Assembly (NCBI RefSeq): GCF_011064595.1
Contig: NZ_JAALJI010000029.1
Coordinates: 1 to 64,000 of the forward strand
Source of the DNA: Paludisphaera soli
GTDB taxonomy: Bacteria; Planctomycetota; Planctomycetia; Isosphaerales; Isosphaeraceae
Reading direction: 5' to 3'
DNA length: 64,000 bases
Part shown: positions 3,029-32,500 of the stretch, piece by piece
How the letters are laid out: the number at the start of each line of letters is the position of its first letter
How positions within the stretch are numbered: the stretch's first letter is position 1
Notes under the pieces: generated by a model
Seen by the model: the letters and a program-made list of their open reading frames with translations, nothing else
What the model was told of the DNA's origin: nothing
The model's database searches: none
Made by a program: the position numbers and the translations under genes

Positions 3029-3141
3029 CGACGGAGCGGCGGCCGCTTGCGGCGGGATGGCGCGCGCGGCATCCTGATACCCAAGAACATCCGGCCTCGG
3101 CCGAGGCCGACCTCCCTCGCCTTACCAGGAGTCGTGCGCCG

Positions 3142-4494
3142 ATGAAGCGACGTGATTTTCTGAGCCGGTCGGCCCTCGTGGGGGTTTCCGGGAAGTTCCT
3201 GAGCGGCGGCGCCCCGGCGATCGCCAGGGCCTCCGAGGAGTCGCCGAACTCCAAGGTCCGCTTCGCGTGCATCGGCGTCGGCGGCAAGGGGACCAGCGAC
3301 ACCGACGACGCCGGCAAGTACGGCGAGATCGCCGCCCTCTGCGACATCGACGAGAAGACCCTGGAGCGGATGGGGGCGAAGTACCCCAACGCCAAGCGGT
3401 ACATCGACTACCGCACGATGCTGGAGGAGATGGGCGACAAGATCGACGCCGTCACCGTCAGCACCCCGGACCACTCGCACGCCCCGGCCGCCGTCATGGC
3501 CATGCGGATGGGCAAGCACGCCTTCGTCCAGAAGCCGCTCACCTGGTCCATCGAGGAGGCCCGGCTGCTCCGCAACCTGGCCGCCGAGAAGAAGCTCTGC
3601 ACCCAGATGGGCAACCAGGGGACCGCCGAGAGCGGCCTCCGCGAAGGGGCCGAGCTGCTCCGCCACGGCGCCATCGGTCGCATCAAGGAGATCCACGTCT
3701 GGACCAACCGGCCGGTCTGGCCGCAGGGCATCGCCGGCTTCAAGGACTATCCCGGCATCCCCAACCACGTCCACTGGTATGAGTTCCTCGGCCCCGCCCA
3801 CGACCGCGCCTATCACGCCGGATACCACCCGTTCAACTGGCGCGGCTGGCTCGACTTCGGCACCGGCGCCCTGGGCGACATGGCCTGCCACACCATCAAC
3901 GTCGCCGCCAAGGGCCTCGACCTGTTCGACCCGATCGGGGCCGAAGTCGTCGACACCTCCGGCATCGTCGACAACCAGACCTACCCGACCTGGTCCATCA
4001 TCAAGACCCACTTCGGCGAGCGCGAAGGCCGCGCGCCGCTGAGCCTCACCTGGTACGACGGCGGCAACAACCTGCCGAAGGAGAAGCGCGCCTACCGCGA
4101 GCTGCTCCACGGCGAGGACCCCAGCGGCAGCGGCCTCCTGATCGTCGGCGACAAGGGCTCGTTCTTCTCCAAGAACGACTACGGCGCGGAGTACACGCTC
4201 CTGCCCAAGGACAAGTTCGGCCCGGACTACAAGAAGCCCGAGGTCCAGTTCGAGAAGTCCCCCGGCCACTTCAAGGAGTTCGTCGAGGCCATCCAGGCCG
4301 GCGACCCGAAAAAGGCCCACTCCAACTTCGACTACGCCGGCCGGCTCACCGAGACCGTCCTGCTGGGCGTCGTGGCCCTCAAGGTCGGCTCCCGCATCGA
4401 GTGGGACGCCGAGGCCATGAAGGTCAAGGGAAACGCCGACGCCGACCAGTACATCCGCCGCGACTACCGCAAGGGCTTCTCGATCCACGCCTGA
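3142..4494 (+). CDS. Tat-exported Gfo/Idh/MocA family oxidoreductase
   Basis: 450 residues. The N-terminus MKRRDFLSRSALVG is a twin-arginine signal. A Rossmann NAD(P)-binding fold starts at VRFACIGVGGKG, followed by the EKP-type loop seen here as FVQKPLTWS, then a C-terminal Gfo/Idh/MocA domain rich in Trp and His (NHVHWYEFLG, HPFNWRGWLDFG, GALGDMACHTIN). Such secreted oxidoreductases are numerous in planctomycetes and are presumed to act on sugars or cyclitols in the periplasm; the substrate cannot be told. The start was chosen for AGGAG 9 bases upstream and for the Tat motif. The gene ends in a terminator hairpin shared with a convergent gene. Confidence 0.92.
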   Translation: MKRRDFLSRSALVGVSGKFLSGGAPAIARASEESPNSKVRFACIGVGGKGTSDTDDAGKYGEIAALCDIDEKTLERMGAKYPNAKRYIDYRTMLEEMGDKIDAVTVSTPDHSHAPAAVMAMRMGKHAFVQKPLTWSIEEARLLRNLAAEKKLCTQMGNQGTAESGLREGAELLRHGAIGRIKEIHVWTNRPVWPQGIAGFKDYPGIPNHVHWYEFLGPAHDRAYHAGYHPFNWRGWLDFGTGALGDMACHTINVAAKGLDLFDPIGAEVVDTSGIVDNQTYPTWSIIKTHFGEREGRAPLSLTWYDGGNNLPKEKRAYRELLHGEDPSGSGLLIVGDKGSFFSKNDYGAEYTLLPKDKFGPDYKKPEVQFEKSPGHFKEFVEAIQAGDPKKAHSNFDYAGRLTETVLLGVVALKVGSRIEWDAEAMKVKGNADADQYIRRDYRKGFSIHA

Positions 4495-4527
4495 GCCGTC
4501 AGTTCGGATCGACCGAGGACCAAACCA

Positions 4528-4558
4528 GGGCCGCCGACGCCACCCGCGTCGGCGGCCC
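4528..4558. terminator. bidirectional terminator hairpin
   Basis: A perfect 13-bp stem (4528-4540 with 4546-4558) with a 5-base loop lies between two convergent genes, 33 bases after one stop codon and touching the other. There is no long T-run on either side, so termination is inferred from position and stem strength. Confidence 0.65.
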
Positions 4559-5020
4559 TCATCCTTTGCGATACTCCAGCCCGGGCTGATCCGCCCCGTC
4601 GCCGAGCCAGATCCACCAGAACCACCGGCTCACGACGAGGCGGCAGTCCGTCTGGTTGATCCCGGTCCGCCTCCCGGTCGAGGCGTCGCGGACGGGCATC
4701 CCCAGGCCGTGCAGGACGAGCCCCTCGCCCTCGAAACTCCAGCGGCTCCTCAGCTTGGTGGCCGCGGCCTCCCCCTCCCACGTCACCTCGCGCGTGTACG
4801 TCCCACCGGGATGGAGCGTGAGCCTGTCCGGCTCGGCCGACCTCCAGGCGATGTATGTCCCGGGCAACTCCGCCTCTTCCACTAACGCGAAGGCCGATGT
4901 CAGCAAGCCCAGCCCCGCGAAATACGCCAGGGGCGCCGACGCGACCAGCACGGCGAGCCGGTACAACCCTCGCCTCGACCTCGACCCCTCGGGCCGAGCC
5001 TCCCCTTCGCCATCGTTCAT
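4559..5020 (-). CDS. small single-pass membrane protein of unknown function
   Basis: 153 residues from ATG at 5020, which has a GAGGGGGG ribosome-binding site. The N-terminal 18 or so residues are charged, then comes one hydrophobic helix (LYRLAVLVASAPLAYFAGLG). A compact extracytoplasmic domain follows with LTLHPGGTYTREVTWEGEA and WSFEGEGLVLHG, which read like the beta strands of a small lipocalin- or TIGR03067-like fold; that likeness is only a guess from pattern. The open frame continues upstream to 5320, but the upstream part has no ribosome-binding site and its composition is not protein-like. It is convergent with the Gfo/Idh/MocA gene. Confidence 0.65.
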   Translation of the reverse strand: MNDGEGEARPEGSRSRRGLYRLAVLVASAPLAYFAGLGLLTSAFALVEEAELPGTYIAWRSAEPDRLTLHPGGTYTREVTWEGEAAATKLRSRWSFEGEGLVLHGLGMPVRDASTGRRTGINQTDCRLVVSRWFWWIWLGDGADQPGLEYRKG

Positions 5021-15998: not shown

Positions 15999-17405
15999 AT
16001 GCTGGACCTCTTCGACCGGGACGCTCGCAGCAATCGCCGATCGTTCCTCCGCATCGGCGGGGCGGCCGCGATCGGGGCGGGGGGGGTGAGCCTGTCGGAC
16101 CTGGCCTCGCTTCGGGCCAGGGCCGAGACGATCCCGGGGGTGCTGACGGGGAAGTCGGTCATCTTCCTCTTCCTGCACGGCGGGCCCAGCCAGTTCGAGA
16201 CCTTCGACCCGAAGATGGGGATGCCGTCGGGAATCCGCAGCGCCACCGGGGAGTTGCCCACGACCATCCCGGGGGTGACGTTCGGACAGTCGTTCCCCGG
16301 CCTGGCCGCGCGGGCCGATCGCCTGAACATCGTCCGCTCCTACGTCCCGGGCGACGCCAACCACGACCTCAAGCCGCTGGTGGGCCGCGACAGCTTCGGG
16401 TCGAACCTCGGCTCGGTCTACTCGCGGGTCGCCGGGGCCAACGACCCGGCCACCGGGATGCCGACGAACGTCGTCCTCTTCCCCCGCGCCGTGGACGACT
16501 CGACGCGGCCGGTCACCACGAGCTTCGGCCGGTTCAACGCCACCGGCCCGCTCTCCGCGGCCCACGCCCCGTTCGACCCCAGCCAGGGGGGCGACTCCGC
16601 CGGCTCGATGAGCCTGGCGTTCCCGCGCGAGCGGCTCGACGACCGCCGGGCGCTGCTCGCGTCGCTCGACGGGCTCGCGCGTCGGCTCGACCGCGACCGG
16701 GCGCTCGCGGGTGTCGATGGGATGTGGGACCAGGCCTGCCGCCTGCTCTCCGGCGGGCTGGCCGAGGCGTTCGACCTCGGTCGCGAGGACCCCCGGACCG
16801 TGGCCCGATACGACACCGCGCCGCTGGTCCGGCCCGACGCCATCGACAAGAAGTGGAAGAACCACAAGAACTACGCCGACAACGCCAAGTCGCTCGGCAA
16901 GCTCCTGCTGCTGGCCCGCCGCCTCTGCGAGCGCGGCTGCGGGTTCGTCACGGTGACGACCAACTTTGTGTGGGACATGCACGCCGACGAGAACAACGCC
17001 ACGATGGAGGAGGGGATGCGCTACATGGGCCCCCCGCTGGACCACGCGCTCTCGGCGTTCCTCGACGACCTCCACGCCCGGGGCCTGGACGAGAAGATCC
17101 TGCTCGTCGCCTGCGGCGAGATGGGTCGCTCGCCCCGGATCAACGGCCAGGGGGGCCGCGACCACTGGGGGAACCTCGGCCCCTTGCTGCTCGCCGGCGG
17201 CGGCCTGCCCACCGGCCAGGTCATCGGCCTCTCCAACCGCGACGGCTCCGCCCCGCAGTCCCAGGCCGTGACCTCCCGCCACCTGATCGCCACGATCATG
17301 CACACGCTCTTCGACGTCGGCCAGCTCCGGCTCGTCCCCAGCCTGCCCCGCGAATTCTCCGAGACGATGATCGGCTGGGAGCCGATCCCGGGCCTGACCT
17401 CGTGA
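15999..17405 (+). CDS. DUF1501 family protein, Tat-exported
   Basis: 468 residues. DUF1501 proteins belong to the alkaline phosphatase/sulfatase-like fold; their reaction is not established. An N-terminal twin-arginine motif NRRSFLRIGG precedes a hydrophobic stretch. Family landmarks: FLFLHGGPSQFETFDPK, SYVPGDANHDLKPLVG, and GEMGRSPRINGQGGRDHWGN near the C-terminus, where Asp/His would be metal ligands in this superfamily. The gene is convergent with the rhomboid gene, with only 31 bases between them. A second, more distant DUF1501 member is at 29614-30774. Confidence 0.92.
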   Translation: MLDLFDRDARSNRRSFLRIGGAAAIGAGGVSLSDLASLRARAETIPGVLTGKSVIFLFLHGGPSQFETFDPKMGMPSGIRSATGELPTTIPGVTFGQSFPGLAARADRLNIVRSYVPGDANHDLKPLVGRDSFGSNLGSVYSRVAGANDPATGMPTNVVLFPRAVDDSTRPVTTSFGRFNATGPLSAAHAPFDPSQGGDSAGSMSLAFPRERLDDRRALLASLDGLARRLDRDRALAGVDGMWDQACRLLSGGLAEAFDLGREDPRTVARYDTAPLVRPDAIDKKWKNHKNYADNAKSLGKLLLLARRLCERGCGFVTVTTNFVWDMHADENNATMEEGMRYMGPPLDHALSAFLDDLHARGLDEKILLVACGEMGRSPRINGQGGRDHWGNLGPLLLAGGGLPTGQVIGLSNRDGSAPQSQAVTSRHLIATIMHTLFDVGQLRLVPSLPREFSETMIGWEPIPGLTS

Positions 17406-23756: not shown

Positions 23757-24461
23757 TCAGCCCTGCGGGGTGTGGCGGATGATGGTGCCTTCCTGGAGGA
23801 AGACGACGGTCTGGGCGATGCCCGTGGCGTGGTCGGCGACGCGTTCCAGGTTGCGGGCGGAGTTGAGCAGCAGCAGCCAGCCGTCGAGCTGGTCGGCGTG
23901 GGCGGCGAGCTGTTCCTTGAGCTGGCGACGCACGGCGCGGTAGCTCTCGTCGATCGCCTGGTCGCCGGCGATGACCTCGCGGGCCTTGGCGGCGTCGATC
24001 TCGGCGAGGGCGACGTAGGACGCCCGGACGTGGGCGTGGACGGCGCGGGCGAGTTCCTTGAGCGAGTCCGGGGCGACGATGTCGGGGAACTTGCGGCCGA
24101 GCTTGCGGACCCGACGCGCCACGCGGAGGGCCAGGTCGGCGATCCGCTCCCAGTCGCGGTTGACCTTCAGGACGGTGGCCATCCGCCGCAGGTCGGACGC
24201 GACGGGCTCGAAGAGGGCGAGGATCCGCAGGCACTCCTGCTCGATCTGGACCTCCCTGCGGTCGGTCTCCTCCTCCTCCTCCTTCACCTCGGCGATCAGG
24301 TCGATGCGGCCCTCGCAGACGGCCTGCACGCTCTTCTCCAGCGAGCCGACGACGGCCTCGCCCATCGCCAGCAGCTCGGCCCAGACGGCGTCCTGCTCGC
24401 GGAACGCGTGACGGGGCACGCCGCCCGTCGCGGATCGCCCCTCCTGAGATCGGCTCGGCAT
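23757..24461 (-). CDS. phoU: PhoU family phosphate-uptake regulator
   Basis: 234 residues; two three-helix PhoU bundles repeat in tandem. PhoU is a cytoplasmic protein that damps the PhoR/PhoB response and the Pst transporter when phosphate is plentiful. Both metal-binding helix signatures are recognisable: KVNRDWERIADLALRVARR in the first repeat and SARNLERVADHATGIAQ in the second. ATG 24461 has the excellent site AGGAGGG 6 bases upstream; the open frame further upstream is not coding. No pst or pho genes are adjacent in the window. Confidence 0.93.
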   Translation of the reverse strand: MPSRSQEGRSATGGVPRHAFREQDAVWAELLAMGEAVVGSLEKSVQAVCEGRIDLIAEVKEEEEETDRREVQIEQECLRILALFEPVASDLRRMATVLKVNRDWERIADLALRVARRVRKLGRKFPDIVAPDSLKELARAVHAHVRASYVALAEIDAAKAREVIAGDQAIDESYRAVRRQLKEQLAAHADQLDGWLLLLNSARNLERVADHATGIAQTVVFLQEGTIIRHTPQG

Positions 24462-24645
24462 GAATCGCCCTCCTGGTGAAAGAGATCCGCGGGGCGGGAC
24501 CAAGCCTCGGCGCGGCGTAAGCGGTGTCGCCATCTTCTGATTCCATTCTTTTCGCGGGGAGGGGCGCTTGCAAGGCGGATTCCCAGGCTACCTCGCCAGA
24601 GCCGGGCCGGCGGCCGCGAAATCCGCCGTCGCGGTCGATGGGGCC

Positions 24646-24673
24646 TTGACGCCGACCCGCCCGCAATTACTAT
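24646..24673 (+). promoter_or_regulatory. promoter of the BlaI/BlaR1-like operon
   Basis: TTGACG at 24646-24651 and TACTAT at 24668-24673, spaced 16 bases. The expected transcription start, about 24680, lies next to the operator palindrome. Confidence 0.55.
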
Positions 24674-24682
24674 GCAACGAAG

Positions 24683-24699
24683 TACTACAATCCGTAGTA
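24683..24699 (+). promoter_or_regulatory. BlaI-type operator palindrome
   Basis: TACTAC (24683-24688) and GTAGTA (24694-24699) form an inverted repeat with a 5-base centre. Known BlaI/MecI operators are TACTACA/TGTAGTA palindromes, and this copy fits the core closely. It lies just downstream of the -10 element and 35 bases before the regulator start codon, so the regulator probably represses its own operon. Confidence 0.7.
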
Positions 24700-24734
24700 T
24701 TACACCCGTCCGGATCCCTGGCGAGAGGAGCTCG

Positions 24735-25136
24735 ATGGTGGGTCGCGTCTCGATCGACGAGCTGGGGGAGCTTCAGAAGGCGGTGATGGAGTCCGTCTGG
24801 GAGCTGGGGGAGGGGACCGTGCAGCAGGTGCGCGACCGGCTCGACCGCAAGCCGCCGCCGGCCTACACGACGATCCTCTCGGTGATGCAGAAGCTGGAGA
24901 AGGCGGGGTGGCTGAGCCACCGGCCGGAGGGGAGGAGCTATGTCTACGTCCCGACCCGGAGCCGGGACGAGGCCGGCTCGTCCACGCTCCGGACGTTCAT
25001 CGAACGGGTCTTCGGGGGCGACCCCTTGCTCCTGTTCCAGCGCCTGCTGGACGACAAGGAGCTGAGCGAGCGGGAACTGTCGGAAATCAGGCGGATGATC
25101 GACCAGAAACGGCGGGAGGAGGGGCGTCATGGTTGA
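24735..25136 (+). CDS. BlaI/MecI/CopY-family transcriptional repressor
   Basis: 133 residues. A winged-helix DNA-binding domain of about 80 residues (LQKAVMESVWELGEGTVQQV, then AYTTILSVMQKLEKAGWLSH, SYVYVPTRSRDEA) is followed by a C-terminal dimerisation helix pair ending in RRMIDQKRREEG. In BlaI the repressor is inactivated by cleavage after a membrane metalloprotease signal. ATG 24735 follows GAGAGGAG; an earlier in-frame ATG at 24672 lies within the promoter and is not used. The stop codon overlaps the start of the next gene by 8 bases, so both are translationally coupled. Confidence 0.93.
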   Translation: MVGRVSIDELGELQKAVMESVWELGEGTVQQVRDRLDRKPPPAYTTILSVMQKLEKAGWLSHRPEGRSYVYVPTRSRDEAGSSTLRTFIERVFGGDPLLLFQRLLDDKELSERELSEIRRMIDQKRREEGRHG

Positions 25137-28100
25137 GCTGGAAGCGATGCGATCGGCCGAGACCCTGATCTGGACCTTCGCCTGGCAGGCGTCGGCCTTC
25201 CTGGCCCTGGGCCTCGCCGCGAGCTTCGCGCTGCGAGGCCGCCCCGCGCGGGGGCACCAGGCCCTGCTGCTGGCGATGCTCGCGGCGGTCGCCGCGCCCA
25301 CTTTGACGCAGGCCGGCCGGCGGCTCGGCTGGGGCCTCTGGAATGCGACGACGCCGACGGCCGTGAGGTCGACGGCCGCGCGAAGCCCCGTCGAGCCGGG
25401 CCCCGGGCCGATGCCCGCGGCCTCGCCCGAGCCGCGGTGGGTCGGCGCCCCCGTCCCGCCTTCGAGGACGGCGCCGACCCTCGCTCTCGCATCCGCGAAC
25501 GACGCTCCCGTCGCGCGGGTCTCGGCGTGGTCGTTCCCCTGGCGGACGGCCTTCCTGACGGCCTGGGCGGTCGTCAGCGGCCTGCTCGGCGTCCGCCTGG
25601 CCGCGTCGTTCTGGAGGGGCTGGTCGCTGGCTCGGGGGGCGACCGTCGTGGAGGACGACTCCCGTCGGGCCGGGCTCGAAGCGGCGGCCCGCGGGCTGAG
25701 GCTGCACGTCAACCCGGCGGTCGGCCGATCGCCGGCCGTGCGCTGCCCCGCGGTCTGGTGCTGGGGCCGCCGACCGCTGCTCCTCCTTCCGGAAGGGCAG
25801 GGGAGTGAGCCCGTCGCGATCGATTGGGTCGCCGTCTTTCGCCACGAGCTGGCGCACTGGCGGCGCCGCGACCACCTCTCGTCGCTCGCGAGCGAGCTGC
25901 TCGTCTGCGTCCTTCCCTGGAATCCGCTGGCGTGGGGGGCCCGCGCCCGGCTGGCGCAGCTGGCCGAGCTGGCCTGCGACGATTGGGTCCTGGCCGCCGG
26001 GACGCCCGCGTCGGACTACGCGGCGACGCTCCTCGGCCTCACGCCGCAGCGGCTCTCGCCCGCGCTGGCCGCCGTGTCGGGCGGGAACGGGCTCCGAGGC
26101 CGCATCGTCCGCATCCTGTCCGACCGCCGCCGCGAGCCCGCCGCCGGCCGGCGTTGGACCGCCGCCGCATGCCTCGCCATGATCCTGGCCGCGTCGCTCG
26201 CCGCGCTCGCCCAGGCCCGGCCGAACGCGAAATCCGACGAGCCGCCGAAGGCGGCCGCGGCGCCCGGGCCGGGGCCCGACCTCACGCACGCCCGCGGCCA
26301 GGTCCTCGACCCGGACGGCAAGCCGGTGGGGAGGGCGAAGGTGTTCTGGATCGGCAATCGCAAGCCGCGACTGCCGTACGTCGCCTTGCCGCGCGGCGAC
26401 CGCGACGCGCTCCCCCGGATCGAGACGATCGCGCTGGCCGAGACGGACGGCGAAGGGGGCTTCCAGCTCTCCGCCCCGTTCCGCGCGGAGGACTTCGTGA
26501 AGTACAACGGCGTCGAGGTCCAGATGGTCGTCGTCGCGCCGGGGCACGGGATCCTGAGCGAGAAGATCGCGGCGAAGGACCTGGACCGGGAATTGACGTT
26601 CAAGCTCGCGCGTCAGGAGGTGATCCGGGGCCGCCTGCTCACCCCCGGCGGCATGCCCGCCGCCGGCGTCCGGGTCCTACTCAACGGCTATCACAACGAC
26701 GAGACGAAACAGGGGCTGTTCGTCGGCAGGGAGGCGCAGGGCGAGCCGACCCCCGACTTCTGGCCGCGACCGACGGAGACGGACGCCGACGGGCGGTTCA
26801 CGGTCGAAGGGGTGCCGGTCGGGGTCTACGCCACGATCGCGTTCCATCATCCCGACTACGCCGTCGACGAGGTGACGGTCAACACGATCCCGGAGCGGAC
26901 GCTCTCCCCGTCGATCAAGGGCTTCGAGATCGTCCCGGTCGAGCCGACGTTCACCCACGCCCTGGAGCCGGCCCGGCCGGTCGAGGGCCGGGTGACCGAC
27001 AAGGCGTCCGGGGCGCCGCTGGCCGGGATCCTGGTGGAGATGATCCCGATGCGTCGGCACGGCGGCCAGGTGTTCACGACTCGCACCGACGCCGACGGCC
27101 GCTACCGCGTCTCCGGCCATTCGACGGACGGGACCTACTTCATCACCGCGTTCCCGCCGGCCGACTCGGGCTACCTCTCGCTCTCGGACCGGCGCGAGGG
27201 CTGGCCCGCCGGGGCGAGCACGATGACGGTCGACCTGCCGCTGGACGCCGGCCGTCTGGTCTCCGGCCGCGTCGTCGACCTGGAGGGGAAGCGGCCGGTC
27301 GCGGGGGCCGCCGTGATGTATCAGCCCGAACCCAGGAATCCGAACAACACCCGAGACTATGACCTGCGGAACTCGGTCGTCGCCGACGCCGACGGCCGGT
27401 TCCGGATCACGGCCTTGAAGGGCCGGGGATTCCTGGCCGTCGAGGGGAACTCCGACGTCTACGCCCGCAGGTCGAGGAAGTCGGCCTCTCGCGACGAAGC
27501 GATCCATCCCCACGGCCTCGTCGAGATCGACGTCCCGGAGCAGGGCGAGCCGGCCCCTGCGGAGATCGTCCTCCGGAGGGGCAAGCCGCTGGAGGCCCGG
27601 CTCCTCGGCCCCGACGGCCTCCCGGTCGATCGCGTCACGGCGATGTACGACGGGATCGACGCGGCCCTCGTCGACGTCTGGAACCAGGGACGTCCCTTCA
27701 CCGGGGGGACGTTCCGCATCGCCGCCGCCGACCCGGAGAGGATCTATCGCGTCCTCTTCCTGAACGTCGAGCGCCGGCTCGGGGCCGTCGCCGAGCTGAA
27801 GGCCGATCCGTCCGGCAAGCCGCTGGAGGTCCGGCTCCTGCCGACCGCCACGATCAAGGGGAAGGTCGCGACGGCCGACGGCCACGTGATGGAAGGAGCT
27901 GGCGCGTCGATCCGGCTCCTCCTCCGATCGGAACGCAAGGAGTACACGCGTGACGAGTTGTTCGAACCGAGCGTCGCGCAGCACTACTCCAATTTCCTCG
28001 GGCAGGACGACTTCTACTTCCACGACCGCCAGCCCGGCCCCGACGGGAGCTTCTCGTTCGAGGCGATGATCCCGGGCGTGGGCTACAACGTCTCGGGCGG

Positions 28101-28197
28101 GCTCGGCGATCGTGAGGTGAGCGAGCTGGTGTGGGACCTGAAGCCGGGCGAGGTCCGCGACCTGGGGACGCTCACCCCGAAGGAGGTGGCCCGATGA
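25129..28197 (+). CDS. BlaR1-like M56 metallopeptidase with carboxypeptidase-regulatory-like domains
   Basis: 1022 residues. The N-terminal third has membrane helices near 14-40, 45-65, 140-165 and 345-362, with a zinc site HELAH (H239, E240, H243) and the ELACDDW motif of M56 peptidases. Unlike BlaR1, the outer part is not a penicillin-binding sensor: after the last helix come repeated beta-sandwich units of the carboxypeptidase regulatory type (ARGQVLDPDGKPVGRAKV, RGRLLTPGGMPAAGVRV, EGRVTDKASGAPLAGI, SGRVVDLEGKRPVAG). By analogy it would cleave the BlaI-type repressor on signal; the ligand is unknown. Strong GGAGGAGGGG site. The next gene overlaps its stop by 4 bases. Confidence 0.87.
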   Translation: MVELEAMRSAETLIWTFAWQASAFLALGLAASFALRGRPARGHQALLLAMLAAVAAPTLTQAGRRLGWGLWNATTPTAVRSTAARSPVEPGPGPMPAASPEPRWVGAPVPPSRTAPTLALASANDAPVARVSAWSFPWRTAFLTAWAVVSGLLGVRLAASFWRGWSLARGATVVEDDSRRAGLEAAARGLRLHVNPAVGRSPAVRCPAVWCWGRRPLLLLPEGQGSEPVAIDWVAVFRHELAHWRRRDHLSSLASELLVCVLPWNPLAWGARARLAQLAELACDDWVLAAGTPASDYAATLLGLTPQRLSPALAAVSGGNGLRGRIVRILSDRRREPAAGRRWTAAACLAMILAASLAALAQARPNAKSDEPPKAAAAPGPGPDLTHARGQVLDPDGKPVGRAKVFWIGNRKPRLPYVALPRGDRDALPRIETIALAETDGEGGFQLSAPFRAEDFVKYNGVEVQMVVVAPGHGILSEKIAAKDLDRELTFKLARQEVIRGRLLTPGGMPAAGVRVLLNGYHNDETKQGLFVGREAQGEPTPDFWPRPTETDADGRFTVEGVPVGVYATIAFHHPDYAVDEVTVNTIPERTLSPSIKGFEIVPVEPTFTHALEPARPVEGRVTDKASGAPLAGILVEMIPMRRHGGQVFTTRTDADGRYRVSGHSTDGTYFITAFPPADSGYLSLSDRREGWPAGASTMTVDLPLDAGRLVSGRVVDLEGKRPVAGAAVMYQPEPRNPNNTRDYDLRNSVVADADGRFRITALKGRGFLAVEGNSDVYARRSRKSASRDEAIHPHGLVEIDVPEQGEPAPAEIVLRRGKPLEARLLGPDGLPVDRVTAMYDGIDAALVDVWNQGRPFTGGTFRIAAADPERIYRVLFLNVERRLGAVAELKADPSGKPLEVRLLPTATIKGKVATADGHVMEGAGASIRLLLRSERKEYTRDELFEPSVAQHYSNFLGQDDFYFHDRQPGPDGSFSFEAMIPGVGYNVSGGLGDREVSELVWDLKPGEVRDLGTLTPKEVAR

Positions 28198-29576
28198 GGA
28201 AGGCGCGATCTCCGTTCGACGACCCCCGGTCCGCGTGGGAGCCCTACCGGCCGACGCCCGAGGAACCCTGGAACGTCGCCAGGGTCGCCCACCTCCACCG
28301 ACGGGCCGGCTTCGCGGCGACCTGGGGCCAGGTCGAGCGCGACGTGGCCGAGGGGCCGGAGCCCTCGATCCGCCGCGTGCTCGACGGCGAGGCCCGCGGG
28401 CCCGACGGCAGCGAGTCGTCGGAGTTCGAGTCGATCGTCGACACGATGGAGCAGTCGTTCCGCCGGCGTCCCTCGATGGAGCGGGTGTCGCTCCTCTGGG
28501 TCTATCGCCTCGTCTTCTCGCCGCACCCGCTGGAAGAAGTCATGACGCTCGCCTGGCACTCGCACTACGCGACGAGCCAGGCCAAGGTGCAGTCGCCCGA
28601 GGCGATGCTCGACCAGAACCGCACGCTCCGAGCCCACTGGCGCGCGAGGATGAGCGTGCTGCATTCGGCGATGCTGTCCGACGCCGCGATGCTCTCGTGG
28701 CTGGACGGGATCGGCAGCACGAAAGCCGCGCCCAACGAGAACCTGGCGAGGGAGTTCCTGGAGCTGTTCGCCCTGGGCGCGGGGAACTACGCCGAGGCCG
28801 ACGTCCGCGAGACGGCCCGGGCGTTCACCGGATGGAGTCGCGTCGATTACAGCCCGTTGCGGGCCGTCCAGGAGGCGGGCGACATGGACGACGGCCCGAA
28901 GACGATTCTCGGCGAGTCCGGCGCCTGGCGGCAGGAGGACGTCGTGCGGATCGCCGTGCGACGGCCGGCCGCCGCGGAGCACATCGCCCGGCGACTCTAC
29001 CGGACGTTCGTCGCGGACGTCGAGGAGCCGTCCCGCGAGTTGATCGCCCCGCTGGCCGACCTGATGCGCGTCGAGGGCGACGTGGACGTGGCGAAGGGGA
29101 TCGAGACGATCCTCCGCTCCCGGATGTTCCACTCGGACGCGTGCCGAGGGCGCTGCATCAAGAGCCCGGCGACGCTGGCGGTCGGTGCGGTCCGCGTCTG
29201 CGAGGCGTTCCGGCCGCCGGTGAACCTCTCCGAGTTGGAGAACCACCTCGCCCGGATGGGCCAGCGCCTGTTCCATCCCCCCGGCGTCGCGGGGTGGCGG
29301 GGCGGGATCGGCTGGCTCGGCGACTCGACCGTCGTGGCCCGGGCGAATTTCGCCGCCTGGCTGACCGGGCCGGGCGCGGGGCTCGCCGCCGGCCATTTCC
29401 GCGACCTCGCCGACCGCCGGGGATGGACGACGCCGGAGGCCCGTTTCGAGGGGTTCGCGGCGCTCCTCCTCGCCACGCCCCTCGACCCGGAGGCCCGGGC
29501 GCGCGTCATCGCCGCGGACGACCCGGCCGGGATCGTCCGGCGGCTCCTCGCCTCGCCCGAAGGGCAGCTCGGATGA
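28194..29576 (+). CDS. DUF1800 family protein
   Basis: 460 residues. Recognisable DUF1800 segments: HLHRRAGFAATWGQVE near residue 33, LAWHSHYATSQ, NENLAREFLELFALGAGNY, DVRETARAFTGW, and LFHPPGVAGWRGG near the C-terminus. No signal peptide is visible. DUF1800 and DUF1501 proteins are commonly encoded side by side; their joint function is not known. ATG 28194 overlaps the stop of the peptidase gene (ATGA) with GAAGGAGG upstream, so it belongs to the same operon. Confidence 0.92.
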   Translation: MRKARSPFDDPRSAWEPYRPTPEEPWNVARVAHLHRRAGFAATWGQVERDVAEGPEPSIRRVLDGEARGPDGSESSEFESIVDTMEQSFRRRPSMERVSLLWVYRLVFSPHPLEEVMTLAWHSHYATSQAKVQSPEAMLDQNRTLRAHWRARMSVLHSAMLSDAAMLSWLDGIGSTKAAPNENLAREFLELFALGAGNYAEADVRETARAFTGWSRVDYSPLRAVQEAGDMDDGPKTILGESGAWRQEDVVRIAVRRPAAAEHIARRLYRTFVADVEEPSRELIAPLADLMRVEGDVDVAKGIETILRSRMFHSDACRGRCIKSPATLAVGAVRVCEAFRPPVNLSELENHLARMGQRLFHPPGVAGWRGGIGWLGDSTVVARANFAAWLTGPGAGLAAGHFRDLADRRGWTTPEARFEGFAALLLATPLDPEARARVIAADDPAGIVRRLLASPEGQLG

Positions 29577-29613
29577 ATCGAACAGGCCCCATTCCCGGAC
29601 CGGAGGCTTCGCC

Positions 29614-30774
29614 ATGCGTTCACGTCGAGCGTTCCTGAAAGAGTCGGGTCTCGCCTGCGCGGTCGGCGGGACCGTCCCGTCGTTCTGGGGCCGGGCCGCG
29701 GCCGCGGCCGAGGCCCGTCGCGACGGGACGATCCTCGTCGTCGTCGAGCTGACCGGCGGCAACGACGGGCTGAACACGGTCGTCCCGCACGGCGACGACG
29801 CCTATCGCAAAAATCGTCCGACCCTCGCCGTGAGTCCGGACAAGGTCCTCAAGCTGGACGACCGGGTCGGCCTCAATGACGCGCTCAAGGACCTGCTCCC
29901 GTCCTGGGAGCGCGGCGAGTTGGCGGTGGTGCAGCAGGTCGGCTATCCGGACCCCAATCGCTCGCACTTCGAATCCATGGCGATCTGGCAGGGGGGCCGG
30001 CCGGGGCCGGCCTTGCCGACGGGATGGCTGGGTCGGGCCGCCGACGCCCACCCCGCGCTGGCCGCGCTGCACGTCGGACCAGCCGAGACGCCCCTCGGCG
30101 TGCGCGGAATCCGGGCCGTCCCCCGGTCGATCGCCGGGCTGGCCGACTTGCGGCTGGAACCGGAGGCCGAGCTCAACCTCACCATGGGGGCGGCCGGCGA
30201 CCCGGCGCTGGACGCCGTCCGCGCCCGGTTCCGGGGTGCCGACGGCTTGATCGCGAGGCTCGGCGGACTGGCTCGTGAGGCGAAGCCCGCCGAAGAGCCG
30301 TTCGAGACGCGCCTGGAGGCCGTCCGTCGCCTGATCGTCGCCGACTCCTCGGCCCGGGTCTACTACACCTCGCTCGACGGATTCGACACCCACGCCGCGC
30401 AGCTCTACACGCACCGAAACCTGCTGGCGACGCTCGGGAAAGGGGTCGCGGGCCTGCTGGCCGGGCTCCGGGAGCGGGGCCTGGCCGAGCGGACGGCTGT
30501 GATGATCTTCTCGGAGTTCGGCCGACGGCTCAAAGAGAACGGCAGCGGGGGGACCGACCATGGTGCGGCCGGGCCGGTGGTGCTCGTGGGCCCGGGCGTG
30601 AAGGGGGGGCTGCACGGCCCCCATCCGGACCTGGGGCGGCTGGATGAGGCGGGGGATCCGCTGTTCGGGGTCGACTTCCGCGACGTGTACGCGGCCGTCC
30701 TGCGCGACTGGTTGGGGGTCGACCCGGCCCCGATCCTCGGGGAGCGGCCGGCGACGCCCGGCCTGTTTTCCTGA
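29614..30774 (+). CDS. DUF1501 family protein, Tat-exported
   Basis: 386 residues, shorter than the DUF1501 protein at 15999. A SRRAFLKESGLACAVGG twin-arginine signal precedes an Ala-rich cleavage region. Alkaline-phosphatase-fold landmarks: VVVELTGGNDGLNTVVPH, NRSHFESMAIWQ, SLDGFDTHAAQLYTH and FSEFGRRLKENGSGGTDHG, the last holding likely metal ligands. It follows the DUF1800 gene by 37 bases, on the same strand, which is the usual arrangement of the pair. The operon ends here, converging with the kinase gene 21 bases away. Confidence 0.93.
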   Translation: MRSRRAFLKESGLACAVGGTVPSFWGRAAAAAEARRDGTILVVVELTGGNDGLNTVVPHGDDAYRKNRPTLAVSPDKVLKLDDRVGLNDALKDLLPSWERGELAVVQQVGYPDPNRSHFESMAIWQGGRPGPALPTGWLGRAADAHPALAALHVGPAETPLGVRGIRAVPRSIAGLADLRLEPEAELNLTMGAAGDPALDAVRARFRGADGLIARLGGLAREAKPAEEPFETRLEAVRRLIVADSSARVYYTSLDGFDTHAAQLYTHRNLLATLGKGVAGLLAGLRERGLAERTAVMIFSEFGRRLKENGSGGTDHGAAGPVVLVGPGVKGGLHGPHPDLGRLDEAGDPLFGVDFRDVYAAVLRDWLGVDPAPILGERPATPGLFS

Positions 30775-30795
30775 TCGCGAAGGCCCGGCCTCGGC

Positions 30796-32130
30796 TCAGC
30801 AGAAGGGCTTCAGCGCGCGACGCATGGAGGTGGCGTCGGGGAACCGTTCGTCGGGATCCCGGGCCAGGCAGCGGCCGACGACGGCGGCGAGGCCGGGGGG
30901 GACGTCGTTGCGACGCTCGAGAATCGGGACGGGGTGCTCCTCCAAGAGCATCTTGATCAGGTCGCCGCCCCCTTCGGGCTCGTCGTAGATGTACTGGCTG
31001 GTGAGCAGGTAATACAGCGTGGCGGCGGTGGCATACAGGTCGGCCTGGGGGCGGACCGTCTTGAAGTCGGTCATCTGCTCGGGGGGCATGAACGGGATGG
31101 TCCCGCGCATCTCGCCGGAGAACGTCAGGCCCGAGAGTCCGACGCTGCGGAAGCTCTTGGCGAGGCCGAAGTCGGAGATCTTGGCGACCGAGCCCTCGTT
31201 GGTCTGGCCGATCAGGATGTTCTCGGGCTTGATGTCGCGGTGGACGAAGCCGCCGTTGTGGGCGTGCTCCAGCCCCTTGAGGATCTGGCAGGCCAGCCGG
31301 CAGGCCTGATCGGTGGGGTAGCGGCCGGGGTCCATCTTGGCGAGGGCTTCGAGGTTCGAGCCGGAGACGTACTCCATCGCGAACCAGAACTGGCCCCGCG
31401 ACATCCCCTGCTCGTACCACTCCACGATGTTCGGGTGCCGGAGCTGGCTGATGACCGACATCTCGCGCTGGAAGCGCTCGATGGCGGCGCGGGTGGTGGC
31501 GACCTCAGGGGTGATGAGCTTGAGGGCGACCATCCGGCCGCTGCTGTTGTGGCGGGCCTGATAGACCACGCCCATCGCACCGCGGCCCAGCTCGCGGATC
31601 GTGGAGTAGTGCGGGACCGGCTGGGGGAGGGCGGCCGCCTCGGTGCGGCAGGCCGAGCACCACCATTCGATGGGCTCATGCGGGTTCGCCCCGACCACGT
31701 TGTTAATCGTGAGGTTCAGCGGCGCCGGGCTCCGGCAGCCGGCGCAGAGGATCGGGTCACGCGCCGGGATGGCGACGCTCGACGAGGGCGCGGGGCCCTT
31801 CTTGGCCGCTTGGCCCGGCTCCACCAGGACCCGGAAGACGCTCTGGCCCGCCGCGATCAGGTCTCCGGAGGCGAGCCGCGCCCGATCGATCCGGGTGCTG
31901 TTGACGAACGTCCCGTTCGTGCTGTCCAGGTCACGAAGCTCGCACTGCGGGGGGTTGATCTCGATCAGGAAGTGGTCTCGCGAGAGGGCCGGGTCGTTGA
32001 TCGGGCAATGGACGAACTGGGATCTCCCCACGATGAACGTGTCGTGGCGGTCGAAGACGAAGGTCCGGCCGGACCTCGGGCCTTTCACGACCTCCAGGAT
32101 CACGCGTGTGGTGGAATTACGTGAGATCAT
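30796..32130 (-). CDS. FHA-zinc ribbon-serine/threonine protein kinase
   Basis: 444 residues, soluble. An FHA phosphothreonine-binding domain (residues about 10-102) has G35-R36-S37, S50-R51-D52-H53 and T71-N72-G73. A zinc-ribbon-like spacer follows with C129-x2-C132 and C158-x2-C161. The Hanks-type kinase (about 172-440) has GRGAMGVVY, K204 in VALK, HRD at 297-299 and D320-F321-G322. Kinases in planctomycetes usually have a membrane anchor; none is seen here. The start at ATG 32130 has GAAGGG 7 bases upstream; upstream in-frame codons lack any protein-like pattern. Targets are unknown. Confidence 0.92.
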   Translation of the reverse strand: MISRNSTTRVILEVVKGPRSGRTFVFDRHDTFIVGRSQFVHCPINDPALSRDHFLIEINPPQCELRDLDSTNGTFVNSTRIDRARLASGDLIAAGQSVFRVLVEPGQAAKKGPAPSSSVAIPARDPILCAGCRSPAPLNLTINNVVGANPHEPIEWWCSACRTEAAALPQPVPHYSTIRELGRGAMGVVYQARHNSSGRMVALKLITPEVATTRAAIERFQREMSVISQLRHPNIVEWYEQGMSRGQFWFAMEYVSGSNLEALAKMDPGRYPTDQACRLACQILKGLEHAHNGGFVHRDIKPENILIGQTNEGSVAKISDFGLAKSFRSVGLSGLTFSGEMRGTIPFMPPEQMTDFKTVRPQADLYATAATLYYLLTSQYIYDEPEGGGDLIKMLLEEHPVPILERRNDVPPGLAAVVGRCLARDPDERFPDATSMRRALKPFC

Positions 32131-32500
32131 CGACGGCCCTTCGGAGCCCCGAGAAGTGCAAGTCGTCGGCACGGCCTCGACCTCCCATCCCCATGAAGGG
32201 GCGCGGACCCGAGGCGTCAGGAGTCGACCGAGCGAGCGACTCCGCCCGTCCGACCACGCTCCGCGCCCGGCCGAGTCCACGTCGCCCGCCCGATATCGGG
32301 GCGGCCGCTTCCCAGGAAACCCTTGAAAAATCGGCCCTCTTTCATAGTATCCCGGCGTCGAGATTCCGAGCCTCGTCCCGCTTATTTTCTCAACCCAGGC
32401 AAGCATTCATCGACCCGGCGAACGGGGGCGACCCTGGGGGTTCCGAAGGGTTGCCCCCCTGACTGAAGCGAGCAAGCTCCGCCCGGCGACGGGAGCGGGA
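32131..32500. other. 370-bp spacer, no gene found
   Basis: Upstream of the kinase and downstream of the next leftward gene. A short A+T-rich stretch at about 32320-32355 could be read as TTGAAA-16-TAGTAT on the plus strand, but no gene lies downstream in that direction for about 4 kb. No convincing promoter for the kinase was seen. Confidence 0.4.

Follow-up and report, generated by a model that had tools for sequence, protein, structure and literature searches.

What might a repressor and a membrane protease of the BlaI/BlaR1 kind have to do with DUF1800 and DUF1501, a pair of proteins that is widespread and seems uncharacterised, with no function reported in those parts of the literature that our search reached? 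The question is raised by positions 24646-30774 of a 64,000-nucleotide stretch of Paludisphaera soli (contig NZ_JAALJI010000029.1; hereafter the window), where the sequence indicates that four genes, encoding a BlaI repressor, an M56 membrane peptidase with an exterior of CarboxypepD_reg (CPD) repeats, a DUF1800 protein and a DUF1501 protein with a twin-arginine translocation (Tat) signal, form one tight operon. This operon is real and conserved. We read it, with a probability of roughly 0.7, as a signal-induced, self-amplifying unit in which BlaI would repress, the M56 peptidase would cut and the DUF1800/DUF1501 pair would be exported. Because the signalling half turns out to be the variable part, the locus is more interesting than the original prediction, made from the sequence before this analysis, had held. 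Its elements are the following.

24646-24673, forward strand: sigma70-like promoter TTGACG-N16-TACTAT, whose -10 box doubles as the left arm of dyad 1.
24668-24684, forward strand: operator dyad 1, TACTATGCAACGAAGTA, imperfect and absent from the original prediction.
24683-24699: operator dyad 2, TACTACAATCCGTAGTA, that is, TACTAC-AATCC-GTAGTA.
24735-25136, forward strand: BlaI/MecI-type winged-helix repressor, 133 residues (PF03965 Penicillinase_R, 95.8 bits against a cut-off of 22.6, E 2.8e-27).
25129-28197, forward strand: M56 receptor-peptidase, 1022 residues, with membrane helices and zinc motifs followed by the ectodomain (PF05569, 55.7 bits against a cut-off of 31, E 5.7e-15).
26212-28194, forward strand: ectodomain of about 660 residues with CPD repeats (PF13620, E 2.7e-23, three stretches).
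28194-29576, forward strand: DUF1800 protein, 460 residues, mostly helical in a structure model, no signal peptide seen (PF08811, positions 1-417 of 419, 304.8 bits, above cut-off, E 1.5e-90).
29614-30774, forward strand: DUF1501 protein, 386 residues, Tat signal SRRAFLK (PF07394, 107.9 bits against a cut-off of 27, E 8.6e-31).

The repressor and receptor genes overlap by 8 bases and the receptor and DUF1800 genes by 4, and a gap of 37 bases separates DUF1800 from DUF1501; these places, overlaps and gap had been predicted, and they match the sequence and the Pfam matches exactly. The repressor probably starts at 24735, with GAGAGGAG at 24723-24730, rather than at the ATG at 24672 given in the open-reading-frame list. 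Since both neighbours, PhoU upstream (23757-24533, antisense) and an FHA-Ser/Thr kinase downstream (30796-32406, convergent), lie on the other strand, the four genes constitute a stand-alone unit. The genome as a whole holds 16 BlaI matches and one DUF1800.

How might this unit be controlled? A consensus scan of 24400-31000 detects one promoter-like site, where shuffled sequences give a mean of 0.1. The two dyads overlap by two bases with a period of 15 bp, in a tandem TACTAY-N5-RWAGTA arrangement. The TACTAC/GTAGTA palindrome of the original prediction is indeed found at 24683-24699, and its supposed overlap with the region of the transcription start is borne out, as the tandem operator overlaps the sole promoter visible in the scanned interval. 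Because the operator takes in the -10 box, BlaI on the dyads would block the promoter. The exact pattern TACTAYNNNNNRWAGTA occurs in the 7.97 Mb of the genome at these two dyads only, and from this operator search we infer that the regulon of the window BlaI is probably this operon alone. In a family set of 45 Isosphaeraceae genomes, 27 of them with DUF1800, palindromic matches to the pattern (both strands) fall at 8 places, seven of which are promoters of this operon type (G000, G002:C245, G011, G014 and G030, plus the decayed G020:C43 and G028); at the eighth, G002:C242 on a contig edge, a tblastn search of 9 kb with the four operon proteins gave no match. A TTGAC-N16/17-[TC]ACTAT promoter with one or two dyads precedes BlaI also in L107, L108, L109, L110, L111, L201 and L271, the last of which belongs to the genus of the window and was read by eye from its sequence. 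Other groups of BlaI have different dyads, likewise read by eye: TGCTAA/TTAGCA, GGTAAATTTACC and TACGG...CGTA.

The protein half of the switch is recognisable as well. The window BlaI aligns with the S. aureus BlaI/MecI structures, and the M56 domain has HELAH at residue 239 and ELACD 41 residues further on. The HExxH and ExxxD motifs, 41 residues from His to Glu, are kept in 22 of 22 M56 genes of linked loci, with the spacing of the BlaR1 zinc-site residues H201 and E242 that are named in the accessible part of PMC9834060. A Pfam scan of the window M56 reveals no penicillin-binding sensor domain, and PF13620 matches in three stretches, so that an M56 peptidase with CPD repeats outside in place of that sensor, as initially proposed, is what we find. 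The BlaR1-type label holds in part: the intact gluzincin signature at BlaR1 spacing speaks for it, whereas the missing sensor and a score of 33.1 bits against the curated cut-off of 400 of blaR1_generic (NF000326) speak against it. L107, L109 and L110 have two tandem M56 receptors between BlaI and DUF1800, both with HExxH, and elsewhere in the genome of the window (L218 5995-12948, reverse strand) a BlaI-linked M56 of 2318 residues has a very long CPD exterior and no DUF1800.

Is the arrangement peculiar to this genome? The family set provides 66 loci, namely the window and 65 further full DUF1800 matches, five weak partial matches (at most 27 bits) being left out; a second sample of named loci comprises the best 80 of at least 544 relatives, or 73 after removal of 7 repeats of family genomes. 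The BlaI, M56, extracytoplasmic function (ECF) sigma factor and CPD profiles were built on family sequences, and distant receptors in the named loci may be missed. The neighbourhood comparison that had been suggested as a check shows that the arrangement is not unique: BlaI and M56 lie directly upstream of DUF1800 and co-directional with it in 19 of 66 family loci including the window (L105, whose M56 is 5.7 kb away, is not counted), and BlaI-M56-CPD is found in four of the 73 named loci (L125, L127, L132, L168). In 11 of the 66 the upstream gene instead joins an ECF sigma factor to CPD repeats (L070, L075, L076, L084, L087, L091, L097, L100, L101, L102, L105; six of these receptors were scanned with Pfam), with one membrane helix between the sigma and CPD parts in 9 of 10 measured (L076 fails the cut-off; L097 was left out). 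Among the named loci, L128 (Gemmata sp. IIL30), L129 and L197 likewise have ECF-CPD receptors; L131 has a CPD protein that is cut. A CPD protein with neither sigma nor M56 part stands upstream in L083 and, cut by contig ends, in L079 and L096; L090 has none of these receptors upstream, and the sequence of L104 begins where its contig does. Together, the 35 loci make up one clade of the 66-row DUF1800 tree, with a support of 86/90 that falls short of the tool's mark, and the other 31 show no CPD protein upstream, although L056, L063, L073 and L074 have at most 3.2 kb there. A quick tree of 140 DUF1800 genes, on which L079, L083, L096 and L131 (CPD, no sigma part; all but L083 cut) were labelled ECF, accounts for the CPD link with 3 changes, against 35.5 in shuffles, and with 1 once L090 and the cut L104 are removed; the simplest reading is that the link arose once. 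Singulisphaera acidiphila DSM 18658 (G037) has both versions of the receptor (L078 and L088 against L075 and L105). Among further arrangements, L070, L075, L091, L100 and L101 have at least two ECF-CPD receptors before one DUF1800/DUF1501 pair, and L100 together with L220 has three; the CPD protein of L083 (9392-14750, reverse strand) is preceded by a gene that looks kinase-like by translation; and outside the CPD clade, in L060, a short stand-alone ECF sigma factor directly precedes the pair.

Two signalling modules occur under one exterior. The M56 and ECF receptor ectodomains are colinear and alike (for example, 40% over 688 residues between the M56 receptor of L095 and the ECF receptor of L091). 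In an ectodomain tree of 33 of 40 rows, from which seven ectodomains of at least 800 residues were dropped, the main groups are those seen for DUF1800, with M56 and ECF receptors intermingled in two of them. The M56 state requires 5 changes on this tree, 3 of them forced by starred branches, and a single clade of all M56 ectodomains is rejected (approximately unbiased test, p-AU 1.6e-52). The 66-row DUF1800 tree has 5 module changes over 30 labelled rows and the 140-row tree 2 with doubtful rows left out. A claim of at least three changes was given up because the 140-row tree requires just 2. As shown by the trees, then, the inner half has evidently changed on at least two occasions (2 to 5, depending on the tree), being a BlaR1-type protease in some receptors and a sigma factor in others; this reading rests on the mixing of M56 and ECF rather than on the number of changes. 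M56 may be the older state, with the sigma factor replacing it twice on the 140-row tree. In a Mantel test of 23 loci (12 of 35 dropped), r is 0.865 for ectodomain and DUF1800, 0.82 for ectodomain and DUF1501, and 0.959 for DUF1800 and DUF1501. Agreement of the trees together with the module changes implies that exterior, DUF1800 and DUF1501 stay together while the signalling half is replaceable. The original prediction had treated the BlaI/BlaR1 half as the defining part; with ECF sigma factors under a homologous exterior, it is instead the exchangeable one.

What might the pair do? DUF1501 follows DUF1800 in 77 of 80 named loci. The DUF1501 protein of the window carries the expected Tat signal (TIGR01409, 19.1 bits against a cut-off of 16.7), a Tat-like RRx[FLMIV] is present in 56 of 63 family DUF1501 proteins, and of three hand-chosen alignments A1, A2 and A3 (22, 21 and 17 rows) A2 displays the motif. 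A hydrophobic N-terminus was found in none of 65 family DUF1800 proteins, whose starts come from our own gene caller and of which L104 is cut at the N-terminus; in the named loci, 5 of the 77 proteins (L166, L171, L182, L189, L198) do have a strong Sec-like N-terminus. These five suggest that the family acts outside and that DUF1800 accompanies DUF1501 here; most likely it goes out as a folded hitch-hiker of the Tat-signal protein. The DUF1800 model (window 28194-29573; alignment of 76 sequences) is mostly helical with a mean predicted local distance difference test score (pLDDT) of 94.5. Against the PDB, Foldseek gave a best E of 0.71 and probabilities of at most 0.04 among the matches listed, and VIA-align no Z above 3.9, a lack of structural match that does not by itself make the predicted fold new; a PDB sequence search with the DUF1501 and DUF1800 profiles returned nothing significant. 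Residues invariant across the 76 DUF1800 sequences include H122, N181, E182, R186, E201, D203, D232 and K236, a set compatible with an active site. Across 21 DUF1501 sequences, G48-G-N-D51, R116-S-H118, D258-T-H260 and T314-D-H316 are invariant. Pfam presumably places DUF1501 near alkaline phosphatases and sulfatases; comparison with sulfatase and phosphodiesterase profiles gave a local match only, at VxxFSEFGRR (probability 44% and 10.6% with sulfatases, 0.6% with phosphodiesterases). A second, distant DUF1501 with an RRSFLR signal lies at 15999-17402 on the forward strand of the window (114 bits to the DUF1501 profile), with no DUF1800 neighbour.

How might these parts work together? We envision, with moderate confidence, a scenario whereby BlaI sits on the tandem dyads, whose overlap with the promoter is plain in the sequence, and blocks transcription until an extracellular ligand acts on the CPD ectodomain of the receptor. 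The ligand would turn on the cytosolic zinc site, which would cut BlaI as BlaR1 does; that step is suggested by the intact HExxH...ExxxD and by the BlaI partner. Derepression would then raise the output of repressor and receptor and bring about that of the DUF1800/DUF1501 pair. DUF1501 would be exported by Tat, DUF1800 would leave with it as its folded partner, and outside, the target of the pair would be what the ectodomain senses or something close to it. On the evidence of the trees, ectodomain, DUF1800 and DUF1501 have diversified together, and the cytoplasmic half has been exchanged between M56 plus BlaI and a membrane-tethered ECF sigma factor. A broader proposal, which we offer tentatively and at slightly under even odds, is that of a modular planctomycete receptor family that places one exterior either on a protease of the BlaR1 type, accompanied by its repressor, or on an ECF sigma factor tethered to the membrane, and one branch of which has co-evolved with exported DUF1800/DUF1501, an outer-face machine with DUF1800 as Tat hitch-hiker and the cytoplasmic half as an exchangeable reporter.

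Several observations weigh against the signal-induced export scenario. Where S. aureus BlaI has its Asn-Phe cleavage site, the aligned window BlaI has Arg-Leu, and three of the four expected M56 membrane helices exceed the hydropathy cut-off in the window; in L107 (9350), L108, L080, L078 and others all four do. L111 and L201 have a degenerate dyad 1, L109 has an off-pattern dyad 2, and single-strand matches to the operator pattern occur at about 12 unrelated places in the family genomes, with a backwards-pattern control giving at least as many. Ectodomain distance is also weakly correlated with the kind of module (Mantel r 0.227, p 0.003). DUF1800 could stay in the cytoplasm, and adjacency can reflect history as well as function. 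Finally, an ectodomain profile search that scored at most 26 candidates per genome recovered many CPD receptors that are not beside DUF1800.

The last point bears on how far the association reaches. None of the 20 extra CPD-receptor stretches that were fetched contains a full DUF1800 or DUF1501, and at least 9 of them have BlaI-M56-CPD without the pair. The next downstream gene lies on the other strand in seven (L207, L210, L211, L212, L214, L216, L218), is co-directional but more than 400 bases off in five (L204, L208, L209, L213, L217) and follows within about 200 bases in six (L201, with a truncated DUF1800, L203, L205, L206, L215, L219); L202 ends near the end of its contig, and L220 is the third tandem receptor of the linked locus L100. 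In the tree, unlinked receptors (16 rows, including L220 and L201) fall among linked ones. An obligate trio of ectodomain, DUF1800 and DUF1501 was rejected because receptors without the pair are common; their existence means that the receptor family extends beyond the operon, with the pair as cargo in some branches. In two cases the cargo genes were lost together: L201 (2907-6857) has BlaI, a whole M56 and a DUF1800 match over residues 5-109 only, with no DUF1501 found, and L271 (G028:C1:3312000-3324000, about 3040-4600) retains a BlaI 87% identical to that of the window, the promoter and the tandem operator, with an M56 matching at its ends only, while its 12 kb stretch gives no match to either DUF1800 or DUF1501.

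Might the same facts be arranged differently? Conceivably, the CPD exterior could be a docking scaffold that holds DUF1800 and DUF1501 at the membrane, with the receptor reporting the amount bound in a form of assembly feedback. The co-diversification of ectodomain and pair (Mantel r 0.865 and 0.82) would suit such a scaffold, as would L083, in which a CPD protein precedes DUF1800/DUF1501 without sigma factor, M56 or membrane helix above cut-off; that receptors of the same family so commonly lack an adjacent pair renders it unlikely, however. We regard as equally improbable that DUF1800 is a cytoplasmic maturation factor, which readies DUF1501 for Tat export and itself stays inside. No hydrophobic N-terminus was seen in 65 of 65 family DUF1800 proteins (L104 being cut) and in 77 of 80 named loci the next gene is DUF1501, both in line with a maturation factor, but the strong Sec-like N-termini of 5 of 77 proteins imply that the family acts outside at least there. 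It is far less credible that the abundant two-gene BlaI-M56-CPD unit of planctomycetes has DUF1800 and DUF1501 downstream by chance. The 16 BlaI genes of the genome and the units without the pair in at least 9 of 20 extra loci are what such noise would produce; gene overlaps (8 and 4 bases), a neighbourhood that returns in 19 of 66 loci, a single DUF1800 clade, agreeing trees and joint loss in L201 and L271 are not.

Why does this matter? As the operon that carries the pair has a likely promoter and a likely operator, the conditions that induce it can be screened by a reporter. The exchange of protease for sigma factor under one exterior represents a natural experiment on the coupling of receptors to transcription. 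Literature searches that reached few subscription papers gave no description of the operon or of the M56/ECF swap.

How does the operon compare with known systems? A DUF1800/DUF1501 operon lies beside a bacterial chitin synthase (PMC5122149) and has the same adjacency and a DUF1501 with a Tat motif; there, unlike here, the pair belongs to the synthase cluster, and the accessible part of that paper describes neither a receptor nor a repressor of the BlaI type. The DUF1501 module of compartmented PVC (Planctomycetes-Verrucomicrobia-Chlamydiae) bacteria (Kamneva 2012, as told in PMC4452313) likewise has DUF1501 in planctomycetes but differs in that DUF1800 and BlaI/M56 go unmentioned in the part of this account available to us. 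ECF sigma factors with C-terminal membrane extensions, namely ECF48, ECF52, ECF53 and IutY, resemble the ECF receptors of the relatives in joining sigma domains to a membrane helix and an outer domain (PMC8999054); the available part of that source makes no mention of an M56/ECF swap, and here, unlike there, the outer part is homologous to that of the M56 receptor and DUF1800/DUF1501 lie behind. From BlaR1/BlaI and MecR1/MecI the operon differs in its CPD exterior instead of a penicillin-binding domain, its TACTAY-N5-RWAGTA operator, its unconserved Asn-Phe site and its score far below the blaR1_generic cut-off. It is like them in that a winged-helix repressor adjoins an M56 membrane peptidase with HExxH/ExxxD at BlaR1 spacing and a C-terminal exterior, and in that operator and promoter overlap ahead of an operon to which the repressor itself belongs.

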